From the NCBI GenBank assembly GCA_002067755.1, contig MVQH01000098.1, forward strand, positions 1 through 59,732: DNA of 59,732 nucleotides, read 5' to 3'. The stretch's first letter is position 1. Every line of letters begins with the position of its first letter. Origin of the DNA: Methanosaeta sp. PtaB.Bin018 (lineage in GTDB: Archaea > Halobacteriota > Methanosarcinia > Methanotrichales > Methanotrichaceae). Positions 8,608-43,935 of this stretch are shown here, piece after piece. The notes below the pieces were generated by a model, which was not told the DNA's origin, made no database searches, and was given only the letters and a program-made list of their open reading frames with translations. A program made the translations under genes and the position numbers.

Positions 8608-8635
8608 ATGAGAATATGTGTTACGGCATTGCAGA

Positions 8636-8671
8636 TTTTTTTTGGGGGTCCGAATCCCCCTTTGATTTTGC
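8636..8671 (+). terminator. Probable transcription terminator
   Basis: A run of eight T residues (8636-8643) lies 28 bases after the stop codon of the binding-protein gene. It is followed by a GGGGG/CCCCC hairpin (8644-8660) and further T-rich sequence. Oligo-T tracts alone can terminate archaeal polymerase. Confidence 0.5.
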
Positions 8672-8768
8672 CCTAGCAGAGCTCGCACATCCCCCAAAAG
8701 GCTTACAAACCAGTTCAATTATCAGCAATATCAGAGGATGAGGTGAAAGAGCGTCTCAAGACAACGTC

Positions 8769-10013: not shown

Positions 10014-10015
10014 AA

Positions 10016-11098: not shown

Positions 11099-11123
11099 CC
11101 ATAATAGTAATAGGAGTATTTGA

Positions 11124-13099: not shown

Positions 13100-13150
13100 G
13101 TAGGTTTAGAATTTTTTATTTTATAATTACTAAATCGATTTTCTGCTGAA

Positions 13151-14173
13151 TCAGCATCTTCGCCAGTATTGGCAGCCATCTAATGTCGTCATTCCGGTTA
13201 TTGTCGGTGCATCAGAGTGCCAATCGACTATACATGGTTTCTCTCTATGCAAATACCAACCGTTGTCATAGAGCAATTCAATAAGTTTTCCTTCAATAAC
13301 ACGACTATGCGTGGCAATCATCATGCCGTCAACGCGTTCGGTAAGCAATGCCAAATTCGCGGCTATTATCTCATATTCAGAGCCTTGAATATCTATGTGC
13401 AGATAATCTACCGTCTCAACATCCACTAATATCTCGCGAATTGTGTATGCTTTTACTTTAATGTTCTTGGTTTGAAACCCTCGATAATCTACTTGACAAT
13501 TCTCAATCGAAGTCGCCGGTCCCATATCGGTAACCGGGACATCCGGGAAATACAACCATTCTAATTCAATTCCAGCAGCGCCTTCAAAAAGTTTACAATG
13601 AATATTATCTAAAAGAGTATCGTTATCTTTAGAATCTGGTCGAAGCTTGTTAAAAGCTAATTGCCTCCTCATGAGTTCAAACCGAGATGGTGAAGCTTCG
13701 ACGCCAACCAAGCGGATTTTAGATAAATTTTTTTTGCGAGCCAAAACCCCTGCTAATGAAATCCATGGCGCCCAACCTGCCCCCAGCTCTACCGCACAAA
13801 AAGAATCTCCTGCACGTTGAATTGAATCGATCAATGCTATATACTCCAACGCCTCCGCGTGAAAACCGTCATCCGGCACAGGTAGAGTTAGACGATCTAA
13901 ATCGAATTTGGATGCAAAGGGTACGCACTCCAAAAGCGTACGCTGACCAAAACCGTCCACGAAGAAGCTCTCGAATATTTGGGCTTTTTCAGATACATAT
14001 TTGCGTAACATCTCAATATCAATATCATAATAACCGCGATATATTTGCTGGGTGCTTGGCTTTAACAATTCATCCTGTATTTTACTACTTTTAGGTACAT
14101 TCGATTTTGGCTTTCTTACAGTCGGTACAAACCCTAAAATTTTTTGTATTAGTGCCATGACATTGATCTCCAT
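13151..14173 (-). CDS. FkbM-family SAM-dependent methyltransferase
   Basis: The protein of about 335-340 residues has a SAM-binding region (AVELGAGWAPWISLAG near 118; VGVEASPSRFELMRRQL) and the FkbM hallmark VDYLHIDIQGSEYEII near residue 265. Such enzymes O-methylate sugars in surface glycans and natural products. The ATG at 14158 has a GGAG motif 9 bases upstream and may be the true start, rather than 14173. The gene is AT-richer than its neighbours, and it follows the double glycosyltransferase by 6 bases, so the three minus-strand genes form one operon. The acceptor sugar is unknown. Confidence 0.82.
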   Translation of the reverse strand: MEINVMALIQKILGFVPTVRKPKSNVPKSSKIQDELLKPSTQQIYRGYYDIDIEMLRKYVSEKAQIFESFFVDGFGQRTLLECVPFASKFDLDRLTLPVPDDGFHAEALEYIALIDSIQRAGDSFCAVELGAGWAPWISLAGVLARKKNLSKIRLVGVEASPSRFELMRRQLAFNKLRPDSKDNDTLLDNIHCKLFEGAAGIELEWLYFPDVPVTDMGPATSIENCQVDYRGFQTKNIKVKAYTIREILVDVETVDYLHIDIQGSEYEIIAANLALLTERVDGMMIATHSRVIEGKLIELLYDNGWYLHREKPCIVDWHSDAPTITGMTTLDGCQYWRRC

Positions 14174-14179
14174 CAGCGG

Positions 14180-16717
14180 CTAATGTGATCCATCCAACTC
14201 CATTTGCCACTTCCCTGCTATGATTATATCCAGAAGCTGGCTTGCGCTCTCATTCCAGGTTAGCCATGGCATGTCGTCCGACTTCGGATGCTGGCCTGAG
14301 TGGTAAAGCTCCAGCCATTTTTGGACCGCCTTTGCTAGATCATCGGGCTCTTTGCCTTTGAAATAAAACGCGTGCTCGCCTGCTACCTCATGGAATACTG
14401 GGATGTCACGTGCAATGATCGGCAGCTTGTGCTGTGCAGCCTCGATCAGCGGTAGGCCGAAACCTTCGCCTTCGGAGGCGGCAATCAAGCAGGTGCAAGA
14501 TGCATAGACCTTCTCGAGATACTCGTCGCTGATGCCCTCAAGCCAGAAGAGACGGCATCCTAGCTCAGGATGACGGCGCAGCTTTTCTACCAGCTTTTCC
14601 ACCATCCATCCCTGCTTGCCGACAATGACGAGGTTTGCATCTACGCCCTGCATCCAGAGTTTTTCAAAGGCAGAGAGCGTCTGTGTATATCCTTTTCTAG
14701 GCTCTAATGTGCCAACCATCAGGAAGCCAGGCCTTCTTGAAAGCTGATCAAGGACGTGCTCTGAGTTGGATGGCAGGCCGCGAGTGGAAACGGAGTTTTC
14801 AATATCGGCGCCCAGGTGGAACCAGCCGATCTTTAGCGGACGGAGACGTTGAATGCCATTGGTCCTCAGCCATTTTGCATACTCGTCTGCGACTGCGCGA
14901 GAGACGCACAGCGTGCCATCGAACCGAGAAATTGCATCTAACCATCTAGCGTGAATTTCAGCCATACCTTTCGGAAAATCATGGGTCAACAAAATCGGCA
15001 GCAAGTCGTATACAACATGAATGACGCGAATGCCACGATTGCGCAGAGATTCAAGATAATCCAATTGCGCAATAACCACATGATGCTGCAAATCAAGACC
15101 CAAGAATATATCCCCTAATTGTGCATCAATCGGATCATCCTCTAGACTGCCGGATAAACCGCCCCTAAAACGCTGAGTGAAATTTCTAGCATGACGGTAA
15201 CCAGGCGTGTCGGTCGTCGCATAAACAGGTTTCACCTGATAACCTTGAGGTGGATTATTAAGCAGCTCTTTTAGGATACTTTTAGTAACCCGCTGGACAC
15301 CCGATCCAGCATCACGTTGTGCCAACTCCGAAACGTCAACAAAGAGCTGTCTTGACCGGCTTTCCGGGTGATTGAGAGAAATTGCCCATGCTGTAGCTAC
15401 AAGGTCATTATCGCTGAAAGTGGCATGCTTCATTGCAGCAATGCTCCCAATGAGCTTTCGATAAATGGATTCGTTTGCTCGAGTTCTTGCAACCGAACGA
15501 CAGATGCGTTCAATAGCAGCAATGGCACGCTTGGCGCTCTCATCCCATGAGAATTTTTTTGCCTGGCCGAGGCCGTGGTGGATAAGCTCGGAACGGAAAG
15601 CGTCATCCGTCAGAACTTCTTCGATCTTGGCGGCGATGGCATCGTCGGAGTGGGGGTCGAAGAGGGCATCATCTCGACCGATTACCTCCGGCAGACTGGA
15701 AGCGTTTGCAGCTATCACAGGAGCTCCGCACGCCATTGCCTCGAGTGGCGGGAGGCCAAAACCCTCATGCCAGGATGGATATATGAAAAGTCTGCAGAGG
15801 TTGTACAGCTTCAGGAGATCCTCATCTGTAACATATCCTGTAATTACAAGCTCGTCTTTTTCAAGATGAGCATCCCGCGCGATGTCATCCAGTTTCTTTT
15901 TATCTGCATAAGATATATTAGAGACTATGACAAGCTGATGGGCTCTTCTCAGATCATCTGGCAGAAAGGCAAAGGTGCGAATGAGTCTATCTAGATTCTT
16001 GCGCGGGTCTGTACCACCAGGTGCGCACATGATAAAAGGTCTGGATATCTTGTACTTGCTGAGCAGTTCAGCTTTATGATCATTGGGTATATCAATAGGC
16101 CTGAAGCGTTCGTCGCATGCTTCATATGTGGTGAATACGCGATCTGGCGGTATGCCCAGCGCTGTTACGGCTTCTCTGGCAGATGAATCCGATACAGCAA
16201 GCCAGGCATAAGCTCTTTTAAGATGATAGATCTTTCTCAAATAACACCGCTCGTAAGCTGGGTTTTCACGCAGGTAGTGATCTGGATTCAGCAATGGTAT
16301 GAGGTCATGCAGTGTAACCACGGTCGGCGTTCTGAGGTCGAAAACGCCGATGCTTGTGACCGCATCATCAACGAACCCCTCGAAGAGGCTGGTTACTAAC
16401 ACCACGTCCGGCTCCAGACTGGCGATAAAAGCCTCGCGTATGCGCTCTGCAGCCTCACGCCGCCAGGTATCTCCTGGCTGCCTCTCTCGAATTGGACCTG
16501 GTGCATACCAAATTCGGATGCTCTCCTGTGGCAAGATGCCATCAAACGCAGCGCGGATCGGCTCGATGGTCTCGGGAAAGAGACCATTCAATGCAATCAG
16601 GACCTCGTGATCGCCACGGTTGCGGACTATGGCTTTGGCAAGAGATAGGCCATAGCGACCGATGCCACGGAAACGGCTAGCGGTCTGCGTCCCTTGAAGA
16701 TCGATTATGATGCGCAT
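14180..16717 (-). CDS. Tandem GT4-GT4 glycosyltransferase
   Basis: This 845-residue protein carries two complete GT-B glycosyltransferases in one chain. The N-terminal unit (about 1-400) starts IIIDLQGTQTASRFRGIGRY and holds HEGFGLPPLEAMACGAPVIA. The C-terminal unit (about 455-830) holds EGEGFGLPLIEAAQHKLPII. Both therefore keep the E-x7-E donor motif and are probably active. The organisation resembles the double mannosyltransferases of ABC-exported O-antigens, by family knowledge. Its ATG overlaps the stop of the upstream methyltransferase by one base. It may alternate two linkages in a repeat unit, which is an inference. Confidence 0.85.
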   Translation of the reverse strand: MRIIIDLQGTQTASRFRGIGRYGLSLAKAIVRNRGDHEVLIALNGLFPETIEPIRAAFDGILPQESIRIWYAPGPIRERQPGDTWRREAAERIREAFIASLEPDVVLVTSLFEGFVDDAVTSIGVFDLRTPTVVTLHDLIPLLNPDHYLRENPAYERCYLRKIYHLKRAYAWLAVSDSSAREAVTALGIPPDRVFTTYEACDERFRPIDIPNDHKAELLSKYKISRPFIMCAPGGTDPRKNLDRLIRTFAFLPDDLRRAHQLVIVSNISYADKKKLDDIARDAHLEKDELVITGYVTDEDLLKLYNLCRLFIYPSWHEGFGLPPLEAMACGAPVIAANASSLPEVIGRDDALFDPHSDDAIAAKIEEVLTDDAFRSELIHHGLGQAKKFSWDESAKRAIAAIERICRSVARTRANESIYRKLIGSIAAMKHATFSDNDLVATAWAISLNHPESRSRQLFVDVSELAQRDAGSGVQRVTKSILKELLNNPPQGYQVKPVYATTDTPGYRHARNFTQRFRGGLSGSLEDDPIDAQLGDIFLGLDLQHHVVIAQLDYLESLRNRGIRVIHVVYDLLPILLTHDFPKGMAEIHARWLDAISRFDGTLCVSRAVADEYAKWLRTNGIQRLRPLKIGWFHLGADIENSVSTRGLPSNSEHVLDQLSRRPGFLMVGTLEPRKGYTQTLSAFEKLWMQGVDANLVIVGKQGWMVEKLVEKLRRHPELGCRLFWLEGISDEYLEKVYASCTCLIAASEGEGFGLPLIEAAQHKLPIIARDIPVFHEVAGEHAFYFKGKEPDDLAKAVQKWLELYHSGQHPKSDDMPWLTWNESASQLLDIIIAGKWQMELDGSH

Positions 16718-17883
16718 CAGTTGCTCCTCCTGTTCGTCTCAATCGCTGCCTTCAGTTCTGCATAGATGCGGCGAGCTTCTGGCGATAGGTCTGAAATCTG
16801 AGAAGGTATATGATTGGAACCCTGCCTGGGATTGCCACCGATAAATCCCCTCGACATGGCAAAGCCGTACAGCCATGAATCAAAGCGTGGATATCTACGG
16901 ACTGCTGCCATTGCCCGAGATTTCAGCGCTGGATGGGCTATGGCGAAGCAAATGATAATGGACAAGATTGGACTGATGACGGCTCCCATTTTGCGCCTGA
17001 TAACCTGAGCCATTCCTGCGATCTTCTTTTTCACTCTGAGAACCCAATCAAAGCCTAAGCGTAATGGCGCCGTGATTCGCCAGCATCGGCTGCGGTAAAC
17101 AGATTGGAGTTCATGCTCGGCTGCCATGAGTTGTTGGTTTCGTTTCTCATAGCGCAGAGCCAAATCATCCATAGTCAAACCATACTCCTTTTTAAAGGCT
17201 GAATCGAAAAGGCGGATGTGCCCATTCGGAGCATTCTTTTGAGCGACGACAGCATAATCTGGACTGACCCCTGTGAACAAGTCCATCAACCGGATATCTT
17301 CTGAATCGGAGATTGATGCCGATTCTTGGAGACGCAATAGTTTGACCCTTGAAAACCCACAATATTCAGCTAAAAAATATAATAATGATGGTGGTATTGG
17401 TCGCTGGTGGGTAGGATCCAGATAGAAGCTGGTTGTAGCAACAACCAGGTTTTCCGGATTTGGCGTTTCTAGAATCAAAAGTCCACCAGGCTTAAGGACA
17501 CGAAACGCTTCAGTAACAAGTTTTTGCAGATCAGCGAACGAGATGTGTTCTATTATATGAAAACCAGAGACTATCACTACGCTTTCGTCCTGCAGCTTCA
17601 TCAAATACTCTACAGCATCCTCTTTTGTGACCGATAACAGGGCTTTGTTACAGGCAGACAGCATACCTTCGTCGAGGTCGACGCCATAAGCCTCAAATCC
17701 TGCCTCTGCCATTAGCTCCAACCATTCGCCTCTGCCACATCCAAGATCTATAGCCTTGCACTCTTTGTGGATAACTTTCAGTGGTGCAATGAATGGCAGA
17801 TAAACACGCAGTCGAGATTTGATTAAATCTCGTGGGCCACGGAACCGATCCTCAAAGGCGCGATAAAATTCTTTATCAATCAA
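16717..17883 (-). CDS. Class I SAM methyltransferase, WbdD-like chain-modifying type
   Basis: This 388-residue protein has a Rossmann methyltransferase domain (motif I AIDLGCGRGEWLEL near 44, VYGVDLDEG, IIEHISFADL, LKPGGLLILETPNPEN) in the first 240 residues. A basic helical tail of about 130 residues with a hydrophobic segment follows. Homologous domains occur in polysaccharide loci next to multi-domain glycosyltransferases, and in WbdD such a domain caps chains to stop growth. No kinase domain is present here. It starts at TTG (17883), with GAGGGATC upstream. It heads the operon with the double GT4 and FkbM genes. Confidence 0.78.
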   Translation of the reverse strand: MIDKEFYRAFEDRFRGPRDLIKSRLRVYLPFIAPLKVIHKECKAIDLGCGRGEWLELMAEAGFEAYGVDLDEGMLSACNKALLSVTKEDAVEYLMKLQDESVVIVSGFHIIEHISFADLQKLVTEAFRVLKPGGLLILETPNPENLVVATTSFYLDPTHQRPIPPSLLYFLAEYCGFSRVKLLRLQESASISDSEDIRLMDLFTGVSPDYAVVAQKNAPNGHIRLFDSAFKKEYGLTMDDLALRYEKRNQQLMAAEHELQSVYRSRCWRITAPLRLGFDWVLRVKKKIAGMAQVIRRKMGAVISPILSIIICFAIAHPALKSRAMAAVRRYPRFDSWLYGFAMSRGFIGGNPRQGSNHIPSQISDLSPEARRIYAELKAAIETNRRSN

Positions 17884-18080
17884 GCGAGATCCCTCAACCC
17901 GATGAACATGTCAACGATTCTTTTTTTACCCTCGGCAAAGATCTCAAAGCATACGACTCCTGATTTTGGATTTATCCAAAGTTCCTAAGGTCTATCGCTG
18001 CTGACGATCCGGTTTTCCTGCAATCCACATGCACAATGTCACGGCCTAATATTATAATCGTTTTGCACATATGCTAATCC

Positions 18081-19112
18081 TGTTGAGTCCCGAATTTATT
18101 TCGCGTCCGTCCAGGTTTTATAGGATCTGATTTATTCATATAATTCTCACAACCCGAACAGACTATGACCTATTGCAAAATAGGCTTCCAGTGGCATTTT
18201 TCGCCTAAAAGCCTTTTCTGGAGTCTCAAGGCTTTGGAAATTTAAACTTCCATGGGGCCTATCGTTATACCAATTGATAAACTCGTCGAATGAAGAAAAA
18301 GCAGATATATGCTTTTTGTATTCTTGGAAAAACCGTTCCAGCTTTCCGTTAGTCTGAAGATGCTTTATTTCAGCCAATATTGGCTTGATACCGTATTTTT
18401 CCATGTGATCTTTGAATTCACTGTTCCAGCTGCCGTAATCATGGATTCTATGGGCTCCAAACTCACTACCATGATCCAGGGTCAGCTCTCTCATTGGATA
18501 TAGCCACCAATATTTGTCAACCACCTGATCGACTACACGCTTGCTGTTCTCTGTATTGATCTCATAGAACTCTCCGCCAGCCAGCACCATCCTGGATGCG
18601 TCATCCAGGATCACGCAGACCTTAATACTGGTCCCATCCCCTTCATGCCAGTCGATATTCCCAGCGGAAAGGCTGTGCTTTCGCTCGTAGCGAACCCACT
18701 TCCTGCGTCTCCGCTTCTTTTCGTCCTCCTGGGCCAGTTCCTGCTCCTTGAGATACATGTGTATGCGATTATGTGATATGCAGATTTTATATTGCTTCCT
18801 GATCACCGGCTCCAGCATCCGCGCTCCGAAGCGATAAGGAGTATAGGCTGCTCGTACTATCTCTGCCTCCCTCTTGTCATGGGGCTTAGAAGGGCTGCCA
18901 ACTTTTTCGCCCAACACAGGCTCCTGTCCGGTTCCTCTGTATCGCTTGATAATTTGCTGGACCCTGCGCTGAGACACCTTGATGTCCCGCGCAATGTCTT
19001 TTGTGGCCATTTGCTTGCGGTTTTGACGAAGGATGTAGCGAACCTTCGTCTTGTTCAATTCAGCACATCGTGTGATCCATTTATGAAGTTTTGAAACTTT
19101 CGAGACTACACA
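18081..19112 (-). mobile_element. IS481-like insertion sequence (about 1.03 kb)
   Basis: Both ends show imperfect terminal inverted repeats: TGTTGAGTCCCGAA reading in from 18081 and TGTGTAGTCTCGAA reading in from 19112 on the other strand (11 of 14 match). The single transposase gene fills the element. The right end cuts the coding sequence of a secreted protein. I see no target-site duplication, and the left flank has no similarity to the interrupted gene, so the insertion was probably followed by a deletion or recombination on that side. Confidence 0.75.
18147..19058 (-). CDS. IS481-family DDE transposase
   Basis: The protein has an N-terminal helix-turn-helix region (MATKDIARDIKVSQRRVQQI) followed by an rve-type integrase core. 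The catalytic triad can be placed as D in DWHEGD, D in LTLDHGSEFG and E in NGKLERFFQEY, the spacing of IS481/IS3-like DDE enzymes. It ends with the family's WYNDRPHGSLNF. The frame is open up to 19154, but codons beyond 19112 lie outside the element and read antisense repeat DNA of the interrupted gene. I therefore favour the internal TTG at 19058. The gene appears intact. Confidence 0.85.
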   Translation of the reverse strand: MNKTKVRYILRQNRKQMATKDIARDIKVSQRRVQQIIKRYRGTGQEPVLGEKVGSPSKPHDKREAEIVRAAYTPYRFGARMLEPVIRKQYKICISHNRIHMYLKEQELAQEDEKKRRRRKWVRYERKHSLSAGNIDWHEGDGTSIKVCVILDDASRMVLAGGEFYEINTENSKRVVDQVVDKYWWLYPMRELTLDHGSEFGAHRIHDYGSWNSEFKDHMEKYGIKPILAEIKHLQTNGKLERFFQEYKKHISAFSSFDEFINWYNDRPHGSLNFQSLETPEKAFRRKMPLEAYFAIGHSLFGL

Positions 19113-21010
19113 TACGTCTTGACCTGGAATGTGCCATCGCCGTTCGACAGCCAACTGTTGATCGATGTGCCCCCCCAGATATGTTCTAAGTCAGCCTTCC
19201 CATCGCCATTGATGTCCAGAACTTGCCACTGACCGAGTGAAGTGCCATAGCCGACCCACGGAGAATAGGACTTGACCTGGAATGTGCCATCGCCGTTCGA
19301 CAGCCAACTGTTGACCGATGTGCCCCCCCAGATATGTTCTAAGTCAGCCTTCCCATCGCCATTGATGTCCAGAACTTGCCACTGACCGAGTGAAGTGCCA
19401 TAGCCGGCCCACGGAGAATAGGACTTGACCTGGAATGTGCCATCGCCGTTCGACAACAGCACATCAATATTATCACCACCATTCAACTCGATCAGGTCAG
19501 TCTTACCATCTCCATTGAAATCTCCGTGCAACCAGCTTAAAGCACTATACCGGTTTGTAGCACCATACAGTTTCTGCGCCCCTGCCTTATCCCCATTCCC
19601 GAGCGTCCTCTGCGGCGCATCGTAGACGTCCATGACCTGCTCCAGGTCCGTCGTCTTAACGTTTCCAGAGGAGTCCATTGAGTAGAGGTCCCCCAAGCCT
19701 ATGGTGTGCCCCAGCTCGTGCAGTGATACAGACTGCAGGTCGAAGATCCTCGGCGATGCGTGATTGTTGTTCACAGCCGTCTGCAGGTCGGTGGTCCAGC
19801 TCACGCCCGTGTTATAGACCACGTCCGAATCATAGATGGAGGAGTACCCATCCACTGTCGGCCCACCGTACTTGGTGGAGGTCTGGCCGAGGATTCCGCT
19901 GGGAAGAGAGCCGAACAGATGAACGTTAAATCCGTCATTGGGATTGGACGTGGCGGCCGTGTCCAATACCAAAGAAGTGTCCGCAAAGAGATTCTGAGAC
20001 ACGGCGTCGTCCCAGGTATTGGCAGCCGCAGCTATGCTGCTCTTGACAGAGTCCTTGTTCAGGTTGGAGGGCTGGCCTGCGGAGTTGTAGTAAAGCTGAA
20101 TTTGCGGGTTGTTCTGGTTCCAGCGCCTGCCGTTTAGCACAAAAGACGAATACGAGCCGCCGCCCAGATTTTCCACTGCCAGGGCATTGCTCTTGTCGAG
20201 GCCGCCAAAGGACTCGCGGCCCATGTTCACGGCGTTGACCTCTACCGATCCGGGGCCCCCTGGCAGATCCCTCAGGCCCTGCACACAGATGCCCCTCTCG
20301 CCCTCGGATACCGACTGGAAGGTCGAGCCGTCCAGCCACGTCACCCCGTCCAAAGAGGCCTGTCCGCTCGCCTGCGGCTGCATCTTTTCGCTTGCAACCG
20401 CGCTCATCTGCGCCTGCATCAGGCCTGCGCCCGAGAAGGTCCCTGTGGCCAGCATTGCCCTGTCCTCTGAGAACGCACCCGTGCCGACGTACCCAGCCAC
20501 GCCCGCCATCTGGGTGCTCTGGCCGGCTGAGACGCCCGCCGTCACGGACAGGCTCTGCACGCTTGCAAGCGCACCGCCTGCGACGCTCGCCTCCTGCCCG
20601 GCCTCTGCGGACCCCTGCACGCCCTTCAAATCAAGGCTCATGCTGCCAGTCCCTGCGACGCCCTGGGCGATGGACGCCTCAGAAGAGCTGGCATAGGTCG
20701 ATGTTGAGGCGCTGATGGCCCCCTGGCTCTCGATGCTATTTTGCAGACTGAAATCATCTCCCGTGACCGACTGCATGAGGCTGTTCTTTCCCGAGCCGCT
20801 CACCTGGCGGCTCTGGCTGAAAGAGCCTAGGCCCAATGTTACTCCCTCCTGCAAAGATGTGAAATCATCCAGATCTAACCTCTCGGAAGAGGACGCGGAC
20901 CCTGCACCACCTCCCGATGAGTAGCTAACTGAGATGCACCACACAGGAGCTGTAAATGCAAATGAGACTAGAAGGAAAGCAAAGATCATACACAAATATC
21001 TGCAGGCCAT
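19106..21010 (-). CDS. Secreted metzincin-type protease with FG-GAP repeats, 3' end cut by an IS
   Basis: This protein of about 634 residues has a signal peptide (MACRYLCMIF to about residue 27) and a Ser/Gly/Ala-rich N-terminal domain of about 230 residues with repeated GSG/SLxxS motifs. A zinc-protease domain with HELGHTIGLGDLY (HExxHxxGxxD, the snapalysin/matrixin pattern) and a Met-turn-like EQVMDVYD follows. The C-terminus has FG-GAP/VCBS-type repeats with DINGDGKADL calcium motifs. The stop codon lies within the IS481-like element, so the native C-terminus is lost. The ATG at 21010 is preferred over the TTG at 21034 because the paralogue at 22537-24075 begins at the equivalent position and GGGAAGGG precedes it. 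Confidence 0.75.
   Translation of the reverse strand: MACRYLCMIFAFLLVSFAFTAPVWCISVSYSSGGGAGSASSSERLDLDDFTSLQEGVTLGLGSFSQSRQVSGSGKNSLMQSVTGDDFSLQNSIESQGAISASTSTYASSSEASIAQGVAGTGSMSLDLKGVQGSAEAGQEASVAGGALASVQSLSVTAGVSAGQSTQMAGVAGYVGTGAFSEDRAMLATGTFSGAGLMQAQMSAVASEKMQPQASGQASLDGVTWLDGSTFQSVSEGERGICVQGLRDLPGGPGSVEVNAVNMGRESFGGLDKSNALAVENLGGGSYSSFVLNGRRWNQNNPQIQLYYNSAGQPSNLNKDSVKSSIAAAANTWDDAVSQNLFADTSLVLDTAATSNPNDGFNVHLFGSLPSGILGQTSTKYGGPTVDGYSSIYDSDVVYNTGVSWTTDLQTAVNNNHASPRIFDLQSVSLHELGHTIGLGDLYSMDSSGNVKTTDLEQVMDVYDAPQRTLGNGDKAGAQKLYGATNRYSALSWLHGDFNGDGKTDLIELNGGDNIDVLLSNGDGTFQVKSYSPWAGYGTSLGQWQVLDINGDGKADLEHIWGGTSVNSWLSNGDGTFQVKSYSPWVGYGTSLGQWQVLDINGDGKADLEHIWGGTSINSWLSNGDGTFQVKTYV
19118..19423 (-). 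repeat. 153-bp tandem repeats encoding FG-GAP units
   Basis: Two full 153-bp units (19118-19270 and 19271-19423) repeat almost exactly, and a third partial, more diverged unit continues upstream. Each encodes 51 residues including WQVLDINGDGKADLEHIWGG and a YSPW motif. Near identity suggests recent unit duplication or gene conversion. Confidence 0.9.
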
Positions 21011-21103
21011 AGGAACCCTTCCCCATCGACGCAATTCAGGCTTTGAGATAAGGTATTAATCATACTACTAAAAACTTCCGAGACCATTTTACAGTGAATG
21101 CGT
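20892..21103. repeat. 212-bp direct repeat, copy A (protease 5' end and promoter)
   Basis: This block covers the upstream region, signal peptide and first mature residues of the metzincin gene. It recurs in the same orientation at 22325-22536 with only about two mismatches (at 20897 and in GGAGCTG/GGGGCTG). Similarity stops abruptly at both edges. Confidence 0.92.
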
Positions 21104-36030: not shown

Positions 36031-37185
36031 TCAATCGCTCCATTTCTCTTGGAAGCCCAGGGCGAATGCCTGGTATACGAACTCCAGAAACGCGTTCTTG
36101 TCAAGGGACATCTGCGATGAGGAGAGGGCATTCATGTAGTCGCAAATTCTGTGGCTTTTGCCCGAAACTGCAGCCGAGATCTGTGCTCCGTAAAGGGCCA
36201 TGACCTCTGGGATGCAGCTCTTTGGGAGGACGCCCCATACGAACTTGTCACGCAGATGGACAAGGGCAGCGACTGCCGCTACCGTGAGTGGATCCTTGAT
36301 GATATTCGAGAAGCTCTTCTCGAAGAGATCGGCGTTGTCCCTGGATAGGAGCTTTGCAATTCCCTGGCACATCTGCTGCCCATCGATCCTGAACCTCTCA
36401 AGATGGGAGAGAGATGAGCACTGGCCAGCTGGCGTCAGCCCATTTTGGAGGGCGAGAGCCCCAAGGACTGCGTCATGCATCGTGCGCCCGATGAGCTCGC
36501 CCACCTTCGAATGCTTTCCGGCAAAAGAGATCGCCTTGCCCCCGAGTTTGGATGCCACTGCGATCTGGTCGGTTCCAGTTCCCGTCGCAATGCCCTCAGA
36601 ATACCGGGAGGGGACCTCCAGCTCCTGGAGGGCTGCACTCTTGGCCTCTGTCGCAGTGATGACTGCGGTGACCATGGCGCCGGGCGTCAGCTCTCTGTTG
36701 ATGAATATCATGGCGTTTATGGTGCCAGGTCGCAGGTCGCATTCATGCTCTTTTACTGCTCTATCATCTTGCGGCTCGTAGTAGGTGGCGGGATCTCCAG
36801 CTCTGCCTGCATTTCCCTCTACACCGCCTGTGCATACTGCCACGACCTCAAGGTCGCAGAACCTCTCGTGGCAGATTGTGGCGTTGTTCATGTTGGCCGC
36901 GGTTCCAAGCGTTGCGCACTTGCTGAAGGGGAGGCTGTGGCGGTCGGCTACCTCTCTCTTATATTCGTCAGGACTGTCTACTGCAAGACGGTAAATCCGG
37001 GCATTCATGTGACCTCCTGCAGGCTCGCATGATTGGTGGTTGAAGATGTACATGAGATCGTCATGCAGCCCGCCGGCGGAGCTGCGGCAGGTGGACAGGA
37101 CCCGATGAGGGGTCATGAGCCTGGCGTAGACTATCTTCTCCTCCCGGCATAGCTCAATGCCGCCATAAAACTCTGCAAGTCTCAT
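36031..37185 (-). CDS. cbiZ: Adenosylcobinamide amidohydrolase (CbiZ)
   Basis: This 384-residue protein belongs to the CbiZ family. CbiZ cleaves the amide bond of adenosylcobinamide to give adenosylcobyric acid, allowing archaea to salvage incomplete corrinoids. The family core is present near the N-terminus (RVLSTCRSSAGGLHDDLMYI, FNHQSCEP) and in ATLGTAANMNNATI, TGGVEGNAGRAGDPATYYE and ATGTGTDQIAVAS. The C-terminal extension (about 240-384) is longer than minimal CbiZ. It is preceded after 14 bases by a double-nitrilase gene, and both face the CobN operon, tying the locus to corrinoid handling. Confidence 0.85.
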   Translation of the reverse strand: MRLAEFYGGIELCREEKIVYARLMTPHRVLSTCRSSAGGLHDDLMYIFNHQSCEPAGGHMNARIYRLAVDSPDEYKREVADRHSLPFSKCATLGTAANMNNATICHERFCDLEVVAVCTGGVEGNAGRAGDPATYYEPQDDRAVKEHECDLRPGTINAMIFINRELTPGAMVTAVITATEAKSAALQELEVPSRYSEGIATGTGTDQIAVASKLGGKAISFAGKHSKVGELIGRTMHDAVLGALALQNGLTPAGQCSSLSHLERFRIDGQQMCQGIAKLLSRDNADLFEKSFSNIIKDPLTVAAVAALVHLRDKFVWGVLPKSCIPEVMALYGAQISAAVSGKSHRICDYMNALSSSQMSLDKNAFLEFVYQAFALGFQEKWSD

Positions 37186-37199
37186 TCTTCTGGCCTCCT

Positions 37200-38873
37200 T
37201 TACATAACAATTTTAAGATCGCTTAAATCAAGCAGCACTCCATAGTCTATGTTCTCCAGGAACCTCTTCTCTCTGGAGTCTTTCGTACCGAACTTTGCAA
37301 TATTGATGGCATCTTTATCTGGTGGAGATGACAGGCAAAAGATCCTTTCAGGATACCTGGAGTAACTGCACAGCAAGCTCTCTCCAATGGCATAAAGCCC
37401 TCTGCAGTCTCCCCATTGATTGGACACGGCCAGGTGCATCTGCTCGCCCAGCCTTGCCTCCCAGATGAACCTGGTTGTGGCATCGTCCCAGAGGGCAGGC
37501 ACACAGAGCATGTCTGCGCCAAGCTTTGCCAGAGAATCTGCGGCCTCAGGAAACATAAGGTCGTGGCCGAGGAGCATTCCTATCCTGGCGAAGGGAAGGT
37601 CAAAGGCCTCAAAACCGCAGTCTCCTAAACATGCCCATGTCTTATCACGCGGGGTGAGGTGAACTGCTCTGTACTTTCCCAGGACCCCATTGGGACCAAC
37701 CAGGACAGAGCTGTTATAGAGCCCCCTCTCGTCCCACTCAGCCATGCCAAAGACGATGAAGAGATCCTTTTCTTGCGCTTTTCTGGCAAAAAGGTCTGTC
37801 GTCTTCCCAGGTATCTCCTCCGAGCATATCTCCGCCTCCTCTGAGCTGAAAAGTGCTCCAGATGTGGAGAGCTCCGGCAGAACGACGAGGTTGACCTTCT
37901 GCTCGTCTCGGGCAGCTTTTTCCACTGCCTCGTCTATGAGCCTGAGGGCCCTCAACACATTGGCAGGCACATCCAGAGGCTCAGGGCATAACTGCAGGGT
38001 TGCTGCCGTAAAATTTGCAGCCTGCGGCAAACCTAGAAGGAACTCGATATTGATATGGGAGTATGGATCCAAAGTTATGTCTCCATAGAATTTAGGCCGC
38101 CTGCAGCTCAAGGCATTCTGCATCCTGATGCTGCTCGAGGGCAAAGCGCCGTAGATGATGGTCTCCTCAGGAGAGCCGATCTGCACCATCGCCTCTCCTC
38201 GAGGACCTACGATGAAGGATTGAGCACCATTGCAGTCCATGACCCTGTCCCTCCCTGTCCTGTTGCATGCCAGGATGTACATGCCGTTTTCTAGGGCTCT
38301 GGCCCGCCAAAATTTTTCGGGGTTGTGGTGCTCAGGAGGCCAGTTGGCCGGAACCAGCAGGATCCTAGCACCTTGAAGGGCCGCGATCCTCGCGGGCTTG
38401 TATGAGTAAGTGTCGGAGCAGATCAACATGCTGATCGGTCCAAACTCTGTCTGGACCACGCTAACTGGGATATTGCCCTTTGCAGCCCAGAGATTTTCCC
38501 TGAAGGCAGGAGACAGCTTGCGGTGTCTGGCCACGACGCATCCCGACGGTCCCAACAAGGCCGCTGAGTTATAGAAAATGTCAGTCCTTGGATCGCGCTC
38601 AGGCATGCCGATGCAGATGTAGCAGCAATGCTCCTTTGCGATCTGACCAAAGGCCTCAGTCGTCGGCCCAGGAATGCTCTCAGCAAGAGGAGCAATCTCC
38701 CTGCGGCTCTCAAAGGCGTAGCCGGTAGTGGCAAGCTCAGTATTCACGATTATTCGGGAGCCCACTTGAGCTGCCTCCTCATTTAAAGCTAATAGCCTGC
38801 CGATATTTTTATCCTTGTCCTTCCAGGAGATCGACGCGTGAACGAGTGCAACCTTCAGCTCTTCGCATGGCAT
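37200..38873 (-). CDS. Tandem double-nitrilase protein with one intact and one degenerate domain
   Basis: This protein of about 557 residues holds two nitrilase-superfamily domains. The first (about 1-265) keeps the Glu-Lys-Cys triad: E in NTELATTGY, K in RHRKLSP and C in MLICSDTY. The second (about 285-550) keeps Glu in VLPELSTSG. In it the Lys position reads A in KYRAVHL and the Cys position reads G in MLLGHDLMFPE, so it is probably non-catalytic. The start at 38873 is chosen because GAGGAG lies 9 bases upstream of that Met. It is co-directional with cbiZ. An amidase role on a corrinoid side chain is possible but unproven. Confidence 0.83.
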   Translation of the reverse strand: MPCEELKVALVHASISWKDKDKNIGRLLALNEEAAQVGSRIIVNTELATTGYAFESRREIAPLAESIPGPTTEAFGQIAKEHCCYICIGMPERDPRTDIFYNSAALLGPSGCVVARHRKLSPAFRENLWAAKGNIPVSVVQTEFGPISMLICSDTYSYKPARIAALQGARILLVPANWPPEHHNPEKFWRARALENGMYILACNRTGRDRVMDCNGAQSFIVGPRGEAMVQIGSPEETIIYGALPSSSIRMQNALSCRRPKFYGDITLDPYSHINIEFLLGLPQAANFTAATLQLCPEPLDVPANVLRALRLIDEAVEKAARDEQKVNLVVLPELSTSGALFSSEEAEICSEEIPGKTTDLFARKAQEKDLFIVFGMAEWDERGLYNSSVLVGPNGVLGKYRAVHLTPRDKTWACLGDCGFEAFDLPFARIGMLLGHDLMFPEAADSLAKLGADMLCVPALWDDATTRFIWEARLGEQMHLAVSNQWGDCRGLYAIGESLLCSYSRYPERIFCLSSPPDKDAINIAKFGTKDSREKRFLENIDYGVLLDLSDLKIVM

Positions 38874-38900
38874 ACTATCAGTCTCCTCGCTATAACCCAA

Positions 38901-39055
38901 AGAATCATTTGATCCATACTCGCCAGATCATACTCGCCAGATGATCTAGAATGCCCTCGAAAGCTTTATTTAATCAACTAAACTAGCATTAAATTAAAAA
39001 ATGTTTTGTTACATGAAGGTCAGCATGATCAAAGATAGCGGGATGGATTAATACG
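38901..39055. promoter_or_regulatory. Divergent promoter with 14-bp tandem repeat, between nitrilase-cbiZ and cobN operons
   Basis: The unit CATACTCGCCAGAT occurs twice head to tail (38915-38928 and 38929-38942), embedded in GATC-ended symmetry. AT-rich TATA candidates for cobN follow (TTTATTTAAT near 38964, ATTAAATTAAAAA near 38989). A tandem operator placed between two divergent operons would let one factor control both. Confidence 0.5.
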
Positions 39056-42000
39056 ATGAAGGTCAAGATTGCCTATGTCACAACACAGGAAGCAAGCGAC
39101 GTCTTCCCTCTCACATCAGCACTAAAAGAGCTGATCCGCCAGAAAGGGGAGGTGGCAGAGGTAGCAGTCAGATCCGGCGAGGACCTCAAGGATGCCGCCC
39201 AAATGGAGCAGTTTGTGCAGTTTGCCAGAGGCTGTCATCTGGTCATCTTCAATTTGCACGGCGGAAAGAAGAGCCTTCCCTCCTTCGACGAGCTGATCCA
39301 GAGGCTGCAAAACAGCGGCGCCTCGATCTTTGCCCAGTCAGCCTCAAACGAGCCCGAGGTCGATCTCATGAGGCTGTCGACCGTCGACGGCGAGGTCTAC
39401 AGGAGAGTCTCTCAATATCTCGACTATGGCGGACGGGAGAACTTCTACAACCTCCTCCTCTACCTGGCCAATCATCTCGCAGGAGCAGATTATGCTTTCT
39501 CCAAGCCCGTGAGGCCCACCTGGGAGGGCATCTATCATCCATCATTCGATCATGTTCCGACCCTGGATGAGTATCTGAAGAGCAAGTACGTAGCCGGTCG
39601 GCCTACGGTTGGCCTGTGGTTCTACCAGAGCCTCTGGCGTGCGGGAAACACTGCCTTCATCGACGGGCTGATCGCTGAGATCGAGGGGCAGGGCGCAAAT
39701 GTCATTCCAGTCTTCCTTCACGCCCAAAAAGACGTCGAGCGGGGAACGAAGGGTGCGGAGTGGGTGGTCGAAAATTTCTTCATGTTGGACGGACGGCCCC
39801 TCATCGACGTCCTGATCAGCACCCTCATGTTCTCGCTCTCCATCAAGCCTTGGGAGGGATCGGGCAGAGACGGGGCTGAGGAGGTCGCAAGATCTGAGCA
39901 GTGGTTCTTGAAGCGGCTGAATGTCCCAGTCCTGAAGGCCCCAGTGACCTACAACTCTCCCGCAGAGTGGATGCAGTCGCTTCAGGGCTTGAGCCCCCTG
40001 GACATCTCCATGGGTGTCGCCATGCCGGAGTTTGACGGAATGCTGATTGCAGTTCCTGTGGCAGCCAGGGAGAGATCAGACATAGATCCGCTGACTGGAG
40101 CGAGGATCATCAGGTTTGAGCCGCTGCCCGAGCGCATCTCCAAGATCGTGCGACTGAGCCTGAACTGGGCGAAGCTTCGGCATATTCCCAATTCCCAGAA
40201 GAAGGTGGCAATCATCTTTCACAACTACCCTCCCAGGGACGACCGCATAGGCTCGGCCTTCGGCCTGGACTCGCCCGTATCGGTCTTGAACATCATGAAG
40301 GCTATGAAGGACGCAGGATACACGATTGAGAGAATGCCCAAGAGCGGCCAGGCCCTGATCGAGGAGGTGAAGAGCGGGCTCACCCTTGACAGGCGCTGGA
40401 GGAGCCCCGACGAGCTGGCGAGGAGGGCGATCGACTCAGTACCTGAGGGGGAATATGAATCCTGGTTTGGGCAGCTCCCAGTGGCAGTGCAAGGGAAGAT
40501 GACCTCTGCCTGGGGAGAGCCGCCGGGAGAGCTTTTCGTTCATAAGAAGAGCCTGATAATTCCTGGGATCATCAACGGCAATATCTTCATAGGCCTTCAG
40601 CCCCCGCGCGGCTTTCTAGAGGACCCAGCAGCCATCTACCACAGCCCAGATCATCCCATTCCCCACCACTACTATGCATACTACCGCTGGATTCGGGATG
40701 TATTCCGGGCGGATGTCGTCATGCACATCGGAAAGCACGGATCTCTTGAATGGCTTCCTGGAAAGTCGGTGGGCCTCTCCCAGTTATGCTTCCCAGACAT
40801 CGCCATATCCGATCTTCCCAACATCTATCCCTACATCATAAACAATCCTGGCGAGGGAACTCAGGCCAAGAGGAGGAGCTACTGCTGCATCATCGATCAT
40901 CTGGTTCCAGCGATGCACAATGCCGATTCCTACGACGAGATGGCAGAGCTGGAGGTGATGCTTGCTGATTACTATCAGGCAGCCTCTGAGGACCCAACCA
41001 AGCTGCAGACGCAGAAGAGGATGATCTGGGAGAAGGTCTGCGAGGCCAAGCTGGACCATGACCTTGAGATCGATGAGAAGGCTGCGTTCTTGGATTTTGA
41101 CAAATTCCTGGAGATGCTTCACGAATATCTGCACGAGATGGCAGACACTCAGATCAGGGACGGGCTTCACATCCTGGGCGAGCCGCCTGAAGGCTCGCGC
41201 CTGGATGAGTTCCTGGTTGCGCTCACAAGGATTGCCAACGGCCCTGTGCCCTCTCTCCGCCAGTCGTTGGCAGAGGCCCTGGGCTACGATTACGACTATC
41301 TTCTGGCCAACAGGGGCAAGATCGCCCATGGATCGAAGACCTGTGGCCAGGTGATCGAGGATCTGGGCGCTCTCGCCCTTCGTCTGGTGTCAGGGCTTCA
41401 TGAGCAGGGCTTCGACAGAGCGCATATTCCTGCCCTGGAAGAGAAGATGCTGGGAAGGAGAAGTCCGAAGGTTGAATTGGTGCTGGACTACATAGCAGCC
41501 ACGCTTGTGCCAAACATCGATGCAACTGTGGACGAGCTTTCAGCCACCCTTTGTGCCTGTCAGGGCGGTTTTGTCTCGCCCGGGCCCTCCGGGGCTCCCA
41601 CACGTGGAATGGCAGACATACTTCCCACTGGAAGGAACTTCTACTCAGTCGATCCTCAGGCGATTCCCTCCCAGGCGGCCTGGAAGGTGGGCGTCGCCCA
41701 GGCAGAGGCGCTGCTCAAGCGTTATCTGGAGGATGAGGGACGCTATCCAGAGTCCATTGGAATCGTTATCTGGGGAAGTCCCACAATGCGAACCAAGGGC
41801 GATGACATAGCCGAGGTCCTATGCCTCATGGGCGTCCGGCCTGTCTGGGAGGTGAAGAGCGGCAGAGTTATCGGAATTGAGCTCATTCCCATGGAGGAGC
41901 TTCAGCGTCCACGCATAGACGTTATGCTGCGCATCAGCGGCTTCTTCCGGGATGCCTTTCCCAATATAGTTCATCTCGTAGACAGGGCCGTTGAGCTGGT

Positions 42001-42859
42001 GGCGCAGCAGAAGGAGCCGGCTGAGCAGAACTTCCTGGCAAAGCACGTATCCGCAGACATTTCTGAGAAGACGTCCGCAGGAATCGACAGGGAGCAGGCC
42101 AAAATCGAGGCATGCTACCGCATCTTTGGCTGCCGCCCCGGAGCCTACGGCGCCGGCGTCTCCGATGCCATTGATTCCAAAAACTGGAAGGATGAAAAAG
42201 ACCTGGCAGAGATCTACGTCAAGTGGGGAGGCTATGCCTATGGCCGCAAGGACTTCGGAGTGACGGTTCCCGATGAGTTCCGAAGGCGGCTCAGCAGACT
42301 CGACCTCACGGTCAAGAACGAGGACACTCGCGAGTACGATATGCTGGACGGCGATGATTTCTACTCCTATCACGGTGGCATGATCGCAGCCGTCAAGGCG
42401 CTGAAAGGCGAGCTTCCCCGTTCGTACTGCGGGGACAGCTCCGATCCTGACAGGGTGAAGACCAGGAGCACTGTTGAGGAGACAAAGCACATCTTCCGGG
42501 CCCGCATTCTCAACCCCAAGTGGATCGAGAGCATGAAGCGGCACGGCTACAAGGGCGCAGGTGATCTCTCCCGAATGGTCGACATCGCCTTCGGCTGGGA
42601 TGCGACCGCCGAGGTTTTGGAAGATTGGATGTATGAGGCTCTGGCTCGCAGATACGCCCTGGACAAGGATATGCAGGAGTGGCTAAAAGGTGTGAATCCC
42701 CATGCCCTGCAGAACATCGCCGAGAGGCTGCTCGAGGCAGTGGAGCGGGGGATGTGGCAGGCAACTGACGAGATGAAGCAGGAGCTTCGGGACGTTTACC
42801 TGGATATCGAGGGGTGGATCGAGGATGATCAACGAACGGATGATAATTCGAGGAGTTAG
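39056..42859 (+). CDS. cobN: CobN-like cobaltochelatase / Mg-chelatase H superfamily subunit
   Basis: This 1267-residue protein is the large tetrapyrrole-binding chelatase subunit, typical in length. The most diagnostic stretch is VVMHIGKHGSLEWLPGKSVG near residue 556. PNIYPYIINNPGEGTQAKRR and the late YAYGRKDFGV and YDMLDGDDFYSYHGGM also fit the family. CobN inserts cobalt into the corrin ring with ATPase partners (CobS/T or ChlI/D-like), none of which are in the window. Methanogens often have several CobN homologues of unclear metal or substrate. The radical SAM gene follows 17 bases later, indicating an operon. Confidence 0.88.
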   Translation: MKVKIAYVTTQEASDVFPLTSALKELIRQKGEVAEVAVRSGEDLKDAAQMEQFVQFARGCHLVIFNLHGGKKSLPSFDELIQRLQNSGASIFAQSASNEPEVDLMRLSTVDGEVYRRVSQYLDYGGRENFYNLLLYLANHLAGADYAFSKPVRPTWEGIYHPSFDHVPTLDEYLKSKYVAGRPTVGLWFYQSLWRAGNTAFIDGLIAEIEGQGANVIPVFLHAQKDVERGTKGAEWVVENFFMLDGRPLIDVLISTLMFSLSIKPWEGSGRDGAEEVARSEQWFLKRLNVPVLKAPVTYNSPAEWMQSLQGLSPLDISMGVAMPEFDGMLIAVPVAARERSDIDPLTGARIIRFEPLPERISKIVRLSLNWAKLRHIPNSQKKVAIIFHNYPPRDDRIGSAFGLDSPVSVLNIMKAMKDAGYTIERMPKSGQALIEEVKSGLTLDRRWRSPDELARRAIDSVPEGEYESWFGQLPVAVQGKMTSAWGEPPGELFVHKKSLIIPGIINGNIFIGLQPPRGFLEDPAAIYHSPDHPIPHHYYAYYRWIRDVFRADVVMHIGKHGSLEWLPGKSVGLSQLCFPDIAISDLPNIYPYIINNPGEGTQAKRRSYCCIIDHLVPAMHNADSYDEMAELEVMLADYYQAASEDPTKLQTQKRMIWEKVCEAKLDHDLEIDEKAAFLDFDKFLEMLHEYLHEMADTQIRDGLHILGEPPEGSRLDEFLVALTRIANGPVPSLRQSLAEALGYDYDYLLANRGKIAHGSKTCGQVIEDLGALALRLVSGLHEQGFDRAHIPALEEKMLGRRSPKVELVLDYIAATLVPNIDATVDELSATLCACQGGFVSPGPSGAPTRGMADILPTGRNFYSVDPQAIPSQAAWKVGVAQAEALLKRYLEDEGRYPESIGIVIWGSPTMRTKGDDIAEVLCLMGVRPVWEVKSGRVIGIELIPMEELQRPRIDVMLRISGFFRDAFPNIVHLVDRAVELVAQQKEPAEQNFLAKHVSADISEKTSAGIDREQAKIEACYRIFGCRPGAYGAGVSDAIDSKNWKDEKDLAEIYVKWGGYAYGRKDFGVTVPDEFRRRLSRLDLTVKNEDTREYDMLDGDDFYSYHGGMIAAVKALKGELPRSYCGDSSDPDRVKTRSTVEETKHIFRARILNPKWIESMKRHGYKGAGDLSRMVDIAFGWDATAEVLEDWMYEALARRYALDKDMQEWLKGVNPHALQNIAERLLEAVERGMWQATDEMKQELRDVYLDIEGWIEDDQRTDDNSRS

Positions 42860-42876
42860 GCATTGAGACATCTTCG

Positions 42877-43935
42877 ATGATCGAGGATAGCCCCGGCCTT
42901 CTGGCCTTGTCCGTGACAAGTGATTGCAACCTTCGCTGCCGCTACTGCTATGCCTGCGGCGGTGAGTCGAGCGCCTCGATGAGCTGGACCACCGCCAGGC
43001 GGGCCATCGATGTGATGGCGGAATGCTTTCGGAGCTTCAAGATCCAGTTCACCGGCGGCGAGCCGCTTCTCAATATGGATCTCATTGAGATGGCGGTGGC
43101 CTACATTGATGAGATAGGCCTGCAGGTTCCCTGCCAGGTTCAGACCAACGCCACACTCATAAATCATGATGTTGCCGAGGCTCTCCAGAGCCTCAGGATC
43201 GCAGTAGGCGTGAGCCTGGACGCCCCTCCTTTGGTGAACGACCATCTTCGGCCTTTTCCTGATGGCAGAGGCTCCACAGGGTCGGCACTGAAAGGGATTT
43301 TTGCCCTGCGAGAAGAAGGCATTCGAGTGGGCGCGACATGCGTTATCTCCAGCGCAAACGCAGGGGCGCTTGCGGGACTGGTGGACCTGCTGAGCTATCT
43401 TGGGAACGTGGAAGGAATCGCCATGGACTTCCTGCGGCCAGTTGGCAGAGCTAGCCGCTCGATGCAGCCAGACCCGAGCGCGGCCGCCGAAGGCATTGAA
43501 GCTGCCATAAAACGCGCCGATCGAATTGCTGAGATGGGCGGACGAAGGATAAGATTCAGGGAGATCGAGCGGATGAAGGGCGCACTGCGTCGTGACGAAA
43601 AGAGGACTCATCACTGCTATTTTGATTCATGCAGATCTCTGGTTGTGCTGGCCGATGGCAGATCTTACGTCTGCCCATCACTTCTCAATCAGAATCTTGG
43701 GTTGGGCGACATCAAGACACCTGACTTTGCAGATGGGCTCTTGGATCGAATGGCTGCAGCACGCTGCCTGGTGCAAGCCCCTCAAGTATGCCAGACCTGT
43801 CCTGATAGGTGGCTGTGCGGTGGGCCGTGTCTGGCCCATTATGTCGCTGGTTTGAATTTGGATATCGAGTGTCTCTCAAAGAAGGTCTTCATGAGATATG
43901 CCAGAAAAACGCCCACTACCCAAGGTCTGCAGTAG
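42877..43935 (+). CDS. Radical SAM protein with SPASM-like C-terminal domain
   Basis: This 352-residue protein has the radical SAM motif CNLRCRYC (C17, C21, C24) with a neighbouring Cys in YAC, the SAM-binding FTGGEPLL near 60-67, and a C-terminal Cys-rich region: CYFDSCRSLVVLADGRSYVC, then VCQTCPDRWLCGGPC. That pattern suggests one or two auxiliary 4Fe-4S clusters, as in peptide-maturing SPASM enzymes. No candidate precursor peptide was seen nearby. Its tight linkage to cobN suggests it acts in the same pathway or on that protein. The substrate is unknown. Confidence 0.82.
   Translation: MIEDSPGLLALSVTSDCNLRCRYCYACGGESSASMSWTTARRAIDVMAECFRSFKIQFTGGEPLLNMDLIEMAVAYIDEIGLQVPCQVQTNATLINHDVAEALQSLRIAVGVSLDAPPLVNDHLRPFPDGRGSTGSALKGIFALREEGIRVGATCVISSANAGALAGLVDLLSYLGNVEGIAMDFLRPVGRASRSMQPDPSAAAEGIEAAIKRADRIAEMGGRRIRFREIERMKGALRRDEKRTHHCYFDSCRSLVVLADGRSYVCPSLLNQNLGLGDIKTPDFADGLLDRMAAARCLVQAPQVCQTCPDRWLCGGPCLAHYVAGLNLDIECLSKKVFMRYARKTPTTQGLQ

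Follow-up and report, generated by a model that had tools for sequence, protein, structure and literature searches.

A divergent CbiZ–nitrilase and CobN–radical SAM locus of Methanosaeta sp. PtaB.Bin018 as a probable archaeal corrinoid salvage and remodelling module

Results

The four-gene locus and its divergent promoter

The stretch of DNA analysed here (the window) is the 59,732-nucleotide contig MVQH01000098.1 of the methanogen Methanosaeta sp. PtaB.Bin018 (Methanotrichaceae), contig C98 of a 2.2-Mb assembly (genome label G000). At 36031–43935 it carries four genes, all assigned to their families by the open reading frame (ORF) list and by Pfam and NCBIfam profiles. Two of them lie on the minus strand, the adenosylcobinamide amidohydrolase CbiZ (36031–37185, 384 amino acids (aa); PF01955, 209 bits) and a tandem nitrilase (37200–38900, 566 aa as listed; two CN_hydrolase stretches, PF00795). 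They diverge from a plus-strand pair, a CobN-type class I chelatase large subunit (39056–42859, 1267 aa; PF02514, 1398 bits) and a radical SAM/SPASM enzyme (42877–43935, 352 aa; PF04055), the divergent starts being about 155 bp apart. ORF calling was mechanical, and neighbouring genes took their names from similarity to a limited set of reference sequences, supplemented by Pfam for representatives; many of the genomes compared are draft metagenome-assembled genomes with broken contigs.

A first-pass annotation of the sequence had listed these four genes and given them one divergent promoter region, and both points were borne out by the ORFs, the profiles and a conserved 55-bp element at 38957–39011. 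In seven relatives the mean pairwise identity of this element is 85%, compared with 34–37% for the ungapped flanks. It contains a BRE/TATA-like sequence (BRE, B recognition element), CGAAAGCTTTATTTAA, on the plus strand and, in most relatives, a second box resembling CGAAAC/ATTTTTTAA on the minus strand; we read these as one putative archaeal BRE/TATA-like box per strand. G057 retains the element upstream of CobN though it has neither CbiZ nor the nitrilase, and the element therefore serves CobN at least. A search of the genome for near-copies with up to 3 mismatches found the element at one place only. A regulon shared through this element was considered and rejected on account of that single occurrence. 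Just outside the element, at 38915–38942, the window has a perfect 14-bp tandem repeat in which CATACTCGCCAGAT stands twice; no doubling was seen in the relatives compared.

The tandem nitrilase has one intact and one degenerate half

The N-terminal half of the nitrilase (about aa 14–287; 38040–38861, minus strand) keeps Glu55, Lys128, Glu135 and Cys161, which are invariant in the 8 Methanotrichaceae orthologues aligned. Among 13 homologues from three phyla, Glu and Lys are kept in all 13 and Cys in 12; homologue L226 lacks the Cys of both halves. The C-terminal half (about aa 288–557; 37230–38039, minus strand) fails the catalytic-triad test, with Gly445 at the Cys site and Ala at the Lys site. 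The Cys site is Gly in 8/8 Methanotrichaceae orthologues and Cys in none of the 13 homologues, and the C-halves of Desulfobacterota nitrilases are degenerate at all three catalytic sites. Judged by these residues, the N-half is predicted to be an active amidase and the C-half a pseudo-enzyme. The label "double nitrilase" given in the first-pass annotation thus holds for two CN_hydrolase stretches and fails for two active halves. The Glu-Lys-Cys site of the N-half is common to the nitrilase superfamily amidases of PF00795 (for example 3ivz, N-carbamoylputrescine amidase); the window protein differs from these in being a tandem with a second half predicted to be dead and in having relatives linked to cobalamin riboswitches in bacteria. 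The tandem nitrilases of Desulfobacterota are distant (33–41% identity to the nearest reference), and it is chiefly their first half that can be recognised; their length, their context and the motif of the N-half suggest that they form one family with that of the window. An AlphaFold model of the tandem nitrilase has a mean pLDDT of 76. The start of the gene may lie at an internal Met at 38873, and orthologue L069 begins MPCEEL.

CbiZ

CbiZ converts adenosylcobinamide into adenosylcobyric acid. The domain is intact in the window protein, where the match covers profile positions 2–191 of 191 (about aa 23–240), and the motif residues are invariant in 20 homologues. The protein has a helical C-terminal extension common to the CbiZ of Desulfobacterota and Bacillota and absent from the approximately 245-aa CbiZ of Bathyarchaeota. 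Among the sequences compared from outside the family, the nearest are CbiZ of Desulfobacterota (54% identity, Desulfacinum). This identity and the shared extension suggest, without proving it, a transfer between bacteria and Methanothrix.

A sequence search of the PDB with CbiZ gave no meaningful match. A structural comparison of the AlphaFold model of the domain (36466–37119) with PDB entries hit Ntn amidases of the NylC and ornithine acetyltransferase types, with E about 1e-5 and a probability of 1.0 but a TM score of only about 0.3. In CbiZ an invariant Gly154-Thr155-Ile156-Asn157 follows a disordered loop, and on this model Thr155 may be a self-cleaved N-terminal nucleophile.

CobN and its motor

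CobN exceeds the cut-off of the TIGR02257 CobN equivalog clearly (1088.5 vs 822 bits) and that of TIGR02025 BchH narrowly (844 vs 829 bits). It carries the active-site motif HIGKHGSLEW (His561). Clade profiles scored 1030 bits for MtCobN (7c6o), 617 for ChlH and 458 for HmuS. The HmuS motif LSLDHxxEFMGG is missing; in a manual alignment the window protein reads LDGDDFYSYHGG, with Asp1101 at the position of the second axial His of HmuS. A HmuS-type heme de-chelatase was therefore rejected as an identification, the sequence being nearer CobN and the axial His missing.

The window genome has 8 CobN matches (6 complete and 2 contig-end fragments), including those on contigs C101, C55, C86, C77, C89, C84 and C73, so that CobN alone is not distinctive here. 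Several of these copies adjoin FecCD and substrate-binding protein (SBP) import genes, and one lies in a 1,776-aa frame. A ChlID-like gene is present on C84, and in both G029 and G021 the CobN of the locus has ChlI/D genes 3–5 kb away; CobT was not found in six genomes searched. A motor for CobN may be CobS/CobT or ChlI/ChlD, and here ChlID-like genes supply the candidate. The first-pass statement that no CobS/T or ChlI/D genes are close is correct for the window copy and incorrect for G029 and G021.

The radical SAM/SPASM enzyme

The radical SAM enzyme has the CX3CX2C cysteines C17, C21 and C24 (within CNLRCRYC) and seven cysteines of the SPASM region, C247, C266, C305, C308, C314, C318 and C332, all of them invariant in 13 orthologues. 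It belongs to no assigned family: its NCBIfam matches all fall far below cut-off, the best being PapB (109 vs 340 bits). In most loci the gene adjoins CobN or CobA. A regular pairing with a precursor peptide in place of cobN had been named as a result that would speak against the four-gene association; the gene stays beside CobN or CobA, and no conserved small precursor ORF (at least 18 codons) was found within 3.5 kb of it at 15 loci. ORFs of 173–206 aa before the gene in Desulfobacterota were considered as precursors of ribosomally synthesized and post-translationally modified peptides (RiPPs) and rejected, as they are CobA. In an approximate tree the enzymes of the clusters fall on one side of six outgroups with weak support (78/16), which does not establish a single origin.

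Conservation in Methanotrichaceae

The full divergent order was found in G029, G025 and G021, which represent three genera, and a partial locus in G047, G079, G083, G023 and G069, where some pieces stop at contig ends. G023 has in addition a second cluster of CbiZ, CobN and radical SAM genes on one strand. Genes for an SBP, FecCD and an ATP-binding cassette (ABC) protein adjoin the locus in G029. Among 50 Methanotrichaceae genomes the tandem nitrilase is present in 10; CbiZ occurs in 9 of these 10 and in none of the 40 others (Fisher p = 4e-9, a value which, the genomes being related, counts species and not independent events). Radical SAM orthologues are present in 15 of the 50 genomes, 8 of them with the nitrilase.

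Two relatives show other genes at the locus. A phage-type integrase adjoins the nitrilase at the place expected for CbiZ in G023 (L071:3558–4484), and G069 has CbiC, another corrinoid gene, next to CbiZ and the nitrilase (L074:4933–5565).

Related clusters and cobalamin riboswitches in bacteria

When the CobN of this clade was searched for in about 85,000 species genomes, 79 loci were obtained. The recurrent neighbours were an SBP/FecCD/ABC importer, ChlI/ChlD, CbiZ, an ABC-2 exporter pair and the radical SAM gene. In an approximate tree the CobN clade includes sequences of Bathyarchaeota, Methanomethylicota, Nitrososphaeria, Chloroflexota, Armatimonadota, Latescibacterota, Neomarinimicrobiota and Myxococcota, and those of Desulfobacterota are placed next to these. 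CobN of SAR202-like Chloroflexota (43–45% identical) occurs mainly with ChlD and sometimes with cbi genes, without CbiZ.

CobN, CbiZ, the radical SAM gene and the tandem nitrilase lie in one cluster in Desulfatibacillum (Desulfobacterota) and Thermacetogenium (Bacillota). In Desulfatibacillum alkenivorans one strand carries CcmC-like, ResB-like, SBP, FecCD, ABC, radical SAM, CobN, CbiZ, tandem nitrilase and CbiK genes; the cluster of Thermacetogenium UBA4966 comprises ChlD, ChlI, exporter, ABC, nitrilase, SBP, FecCD, CobN, radical SAM and CbiZ. The co-occurrence of the four families that had been predicted is thus seen directly, as neighbours in three genera of Methanotrichaceae and as shared clusters in two bacterial phyla. 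The genomes behind 18 loci yielded further tandem nitrilases (Syntrophaceticus, Desulfacinum, Desulfogranum, Desulfobulbus and others), and most of these genes adjoin CobN, CbiZ, CobA or the radical SAM gene. In three genomes CobA/BtuR immediately precedes the radical SAM gene, after which comes the nitrilase, either at once or with CbiK in between.

An Rfam scan of 15 bacterial genomes, whose loci had been picked for the CobN clade or the nitrilase and not for riboswitches, located a cobalamin riboswitch (RF00174) within or next to the cluster in 11. The riboswitch stands upstream of the nitrilase on the same strand in six genomes, those of Desulfatibacillum, Thermacetogenium, Syntrophaceticus (about 90 bp), Desulfogranum, Desulfobulbus rhabdoformis and Desulfacinum; for Desulfacinum the coordinates of L144 and L218 were joined on one contig. 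The scan gave no riboswitch in the loci of Dehalococcoidia and Latescibacterota, in L126 or in G214. We found no paper relevant to a nitrilase together with a cobalamin riboswitch in the open-licence literature.

Some further features of these regions may be recorded. The ABC-2 exporter pair, an ATPase and a membrane protein, recurs in L123, L125, L142, L179 and others, and in L083 and L085 of Methanotrichaceae. Several bacteria have two distinct CobN types within one cluster. In Syntrophaceticus schinkii (L225:1030–3278) two pyrrolysine insertion elements of mttB and mtbB type lie near a second, more distant tandem nitrilase. Elsewhere in the window, 7360–21034 is a polysaccharide region (GDP-mannose dehydratase, glycosyltransferases and a Wzm/Wzt-like ABC-2 transporter) bordered by one Peripla_BP_2 protein.

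Discussion

Our data indicate that the locus is probably the archaeal version of a module for corrinoid salvage and remodelling that occurs in several phyla. A role in corrinoid metabolism is very likely, and this part of the first-pass proposal is well supported because the related clusters bring together cobalamin riboswitches, CbiZ, CobA, CbiK and BtuFCD-like importers. Scavenged corrinoids would enter the cell through importers of the BtuFCD/FecBCD type, which are encoded beside the module in relatives. CbiZ would then cut the amide that holds the aminopropanol or nucleotide arm and give cobyric acid. The N-half of the nitrilase would act as a corrinoid amidase, with side-chain amides as its most likely targets, and an activity of the nitrilase on some corrinoid amide is the option we favour to a modest degree; its C-half might be structural or bind substrate. 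CobN, with a ChlI/ChlD motor shared with other CobN paralogues, would add or exchange the central metal of the processed ring. Metal insertion by CobN is conceivable though short of an even chance, and extraction is doubtful; we hold it likelier that CobN puts cobalt into metal-free or wrongly metallated corrinoids than that it takes cobalt out. Some purple sulfur bacteria produce corrinoids without cobalt (PMC6771967). The radical SAM/SPASM enzyme might further modify the corrinoid or a protein of the system. We infer this route, in its substrates, its order of steps, the direction of CobN and the part of the radical SAM enzyme, from gene content and conserved residues.

Several systems that have been described resemble parts of the locus. 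The Dehalobacter restrictus operon-2 encodes FepBCD, two CbiZ, CobN and Mg-chelatase subunits under a cobalamin riboswitch, and its transcript rises 346-fold on corrinoid starvation (PMC4285132). Together with its counterpart in Acetobacterium woodii, this operon has the same core of transporter, CbiZ, CobN and Mg-chelatase as the related clusters (PMC4285132). The text on operon-2 names no nitrilase or radical SAM gene, and the window version differs further in being archaeal and divergent and in having neither a riboswitch nor an adjoining ChlI/D or importer. By analogy, the window locus probably shares the core of operon-2 and works like it. In the CobNST chelatases and the CobN-ChlI/D hybrids (PMC7689651, PMC9227772) the large subunit is of the CobN type that here exceeds the TIGR02257 cut-off, and a ChlI/D-type motor is encoded in the window genome. 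CobNST, however, inserts cobalt late in de novo synthesis, whereas the CobN described here lies in salvage clusters. For archaea, PMC8620254 (citing Woodson and Escalante-Semerena 2004) describes a CbiZ amidohydrolase that gives cobyric acid in cobinamide salvage. The same enzyme is encoded here; in contrast to that system, the window CbiZ has a C-terminal extension and is tied to the tandem nitrilase, CobN and the radical SAM enzyme. The hmu operon likewise encodes an enzyme of the CobN superfamily together with a TonB/ABC tetrapyrrole importer, and its HmuS removes iron from heme in an NADH-dependent reaction (PMC12583661). The window CobN scores far nearer CobN than HmuS and does not have the axial His of HmuS. 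Within the open-licence literature, three features appear to be new: the recurrent tandem nitrilase of which one half is predicted to be dead, the partnership with a radical SAM/SPASM enzyme, and the divergent arrangement in archaea.

Some observations weigh against a corrinoid module of four cooperating enzymes. Neither an importer nor ChlI/D adjoins the window copy, and an Rfam scan of the window gave one tRNA only and no riboswitch. G075 has the tandem nitrilase with CbiZ undetected in a genome that is 79% complete. Peptide maturases are the families to which the radical SAM enzyme comes closest by score, and it may act on a substrate other than a corrinoid. CbiK beside the nitrilase could merely reflect upregulated de novo synthesis, and we found no biochemistry on any member of the cluster in the open-licence literature. 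Seven relatives, for example G057 and G007, have CobN and the radical SAM gene without CbiZ or the nitrilase. These distributions indicate that CobN and the radical SAM gene form a wider pair, to which CbiZ and the nitrilase were joined as a patchier module. G057 (L081), a close relative with CobN, the radical SAM gene and the promoter element, offers a natural comparison strain.

The same seven relatives would fit salvage of corrinoids by CbiZ only, with CobN, the radical SAM enzyme and the nitrilase each acting by itself, for instance in general amide metabolism or on other tetrapyrroles, and kept as neighbours by shared regulation. It is established that CbiZ alone is able to carry out cobinamide salvage, as Woodson and Escalante-Semerena reportedly found. 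However, the co-occurrence of CbiZ and the nitrilase is nearly perfect in the 50 genomes, and both cluster with CobN and the radical SAM gene in two other phyla, which makes separate roles improbable. We give a similarly low likelihood to a retro-biosynthetic recovery of cobalt, in which CbiZ, the nitrilase and an ATP-driven CobN-ChlI/D would strip the arm, the side-chain amides and the cobalt from corrinoids unusable to the cell, CbiK would re-insert the cobalt into sirohydrochlorin and the ABC-2 exporter would expel the ring. The three enzyme classes are the reverse of arm attachment, side-chain amidation and cobalt insertion, CbiK adjoins the nitrilase in Desulfatibacillum and Desulfacinum, and the exporter pair is recurrent in the clusters. 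The layout of an importer with a CobN homologue also resembles the hmu system, where HmuS is a member of the superfamily that runs backwards on heme (PMC12583661). On the other hand, cobalt corrins resist loss of cobalt unless the ring is destroyed (PMC6771967), the known chemistry of CobN is forward metal insertion (PMC7689651), and destruction of corrinoids during B12 scarcity is counter-intuitive. The enzyme here is CobN-like, with Asp1101, in the manual reading, in place of the axial His, and CbiZ by itself already yields usable cobyric acid. If cobalt recovery were true, cobalt would become reusable; we know of no earlier case in which an enzyme takes cobalt out of a corrin.

Two other explanations depend on the radical SAM enzyme and on the host. 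The radical SAM enzyme might produce a modified peptide (a RiPP or metallophore) for secretion by the ABC-2 exporter and for recapture, loaded with cobalt or a corrinoid, by SBP/FecCD, the neighbouring CobN handling the cargo. The peptide maturases among its best family matches, far below cut-off as they are, and the ABC-2 exporter genes that adjoin the radical SAM gene in several Methanotrichaceae would agree with this, but the lack of a conserved small ORF within 3.5 kb at the 15 loci and the position next to CobN or CobA in many loci make it a remote prospect. Least probable is recycling of F430 or another nickel tetrapyrrole, in which the locus would strip or remetallate F430, an abundant tetrapyrrole of methanogens. 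The host is a methanogen, and the classical a,c-diamide substrate of CobN is known to resemble F430 precursors. However, the same riboswitch-linked cluster is found in Desulfobacterota and Bacillota, whose members that carry it do not, to our knowledge, make F430, and most Methanotrichaceae genomes have neither CbiZ nor the nitrilase. A role in F430 metabolism was rejected as the principal explanation because the cluster is present in bacteria, and the option of F430 or a related ring in the first-pass annotation is unsupported.

The functions of archaeal CobN have been described as unclear (PMC12583661). With the corrinoid salvage and remodelling module proposed here, this long-puzzling "cobalt chelatase" of archaea gains a probable job, and the links of its clade with CbiZ, CobA, CbiK, B12-type importers and cobalamin riboswitches allow its function to be tested on defined substrates. 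Two uncharacterised enzymes, the half-dead tandem nitrilase and the radical SAM/SPASM enzyme, would join the B12 salvage toolbox of corrinoid-dependent anaerobes. Methane formation, acetogenesis and other pathways of such anaerobes require corrinoids, and cultured hosts for tests are among those named here.

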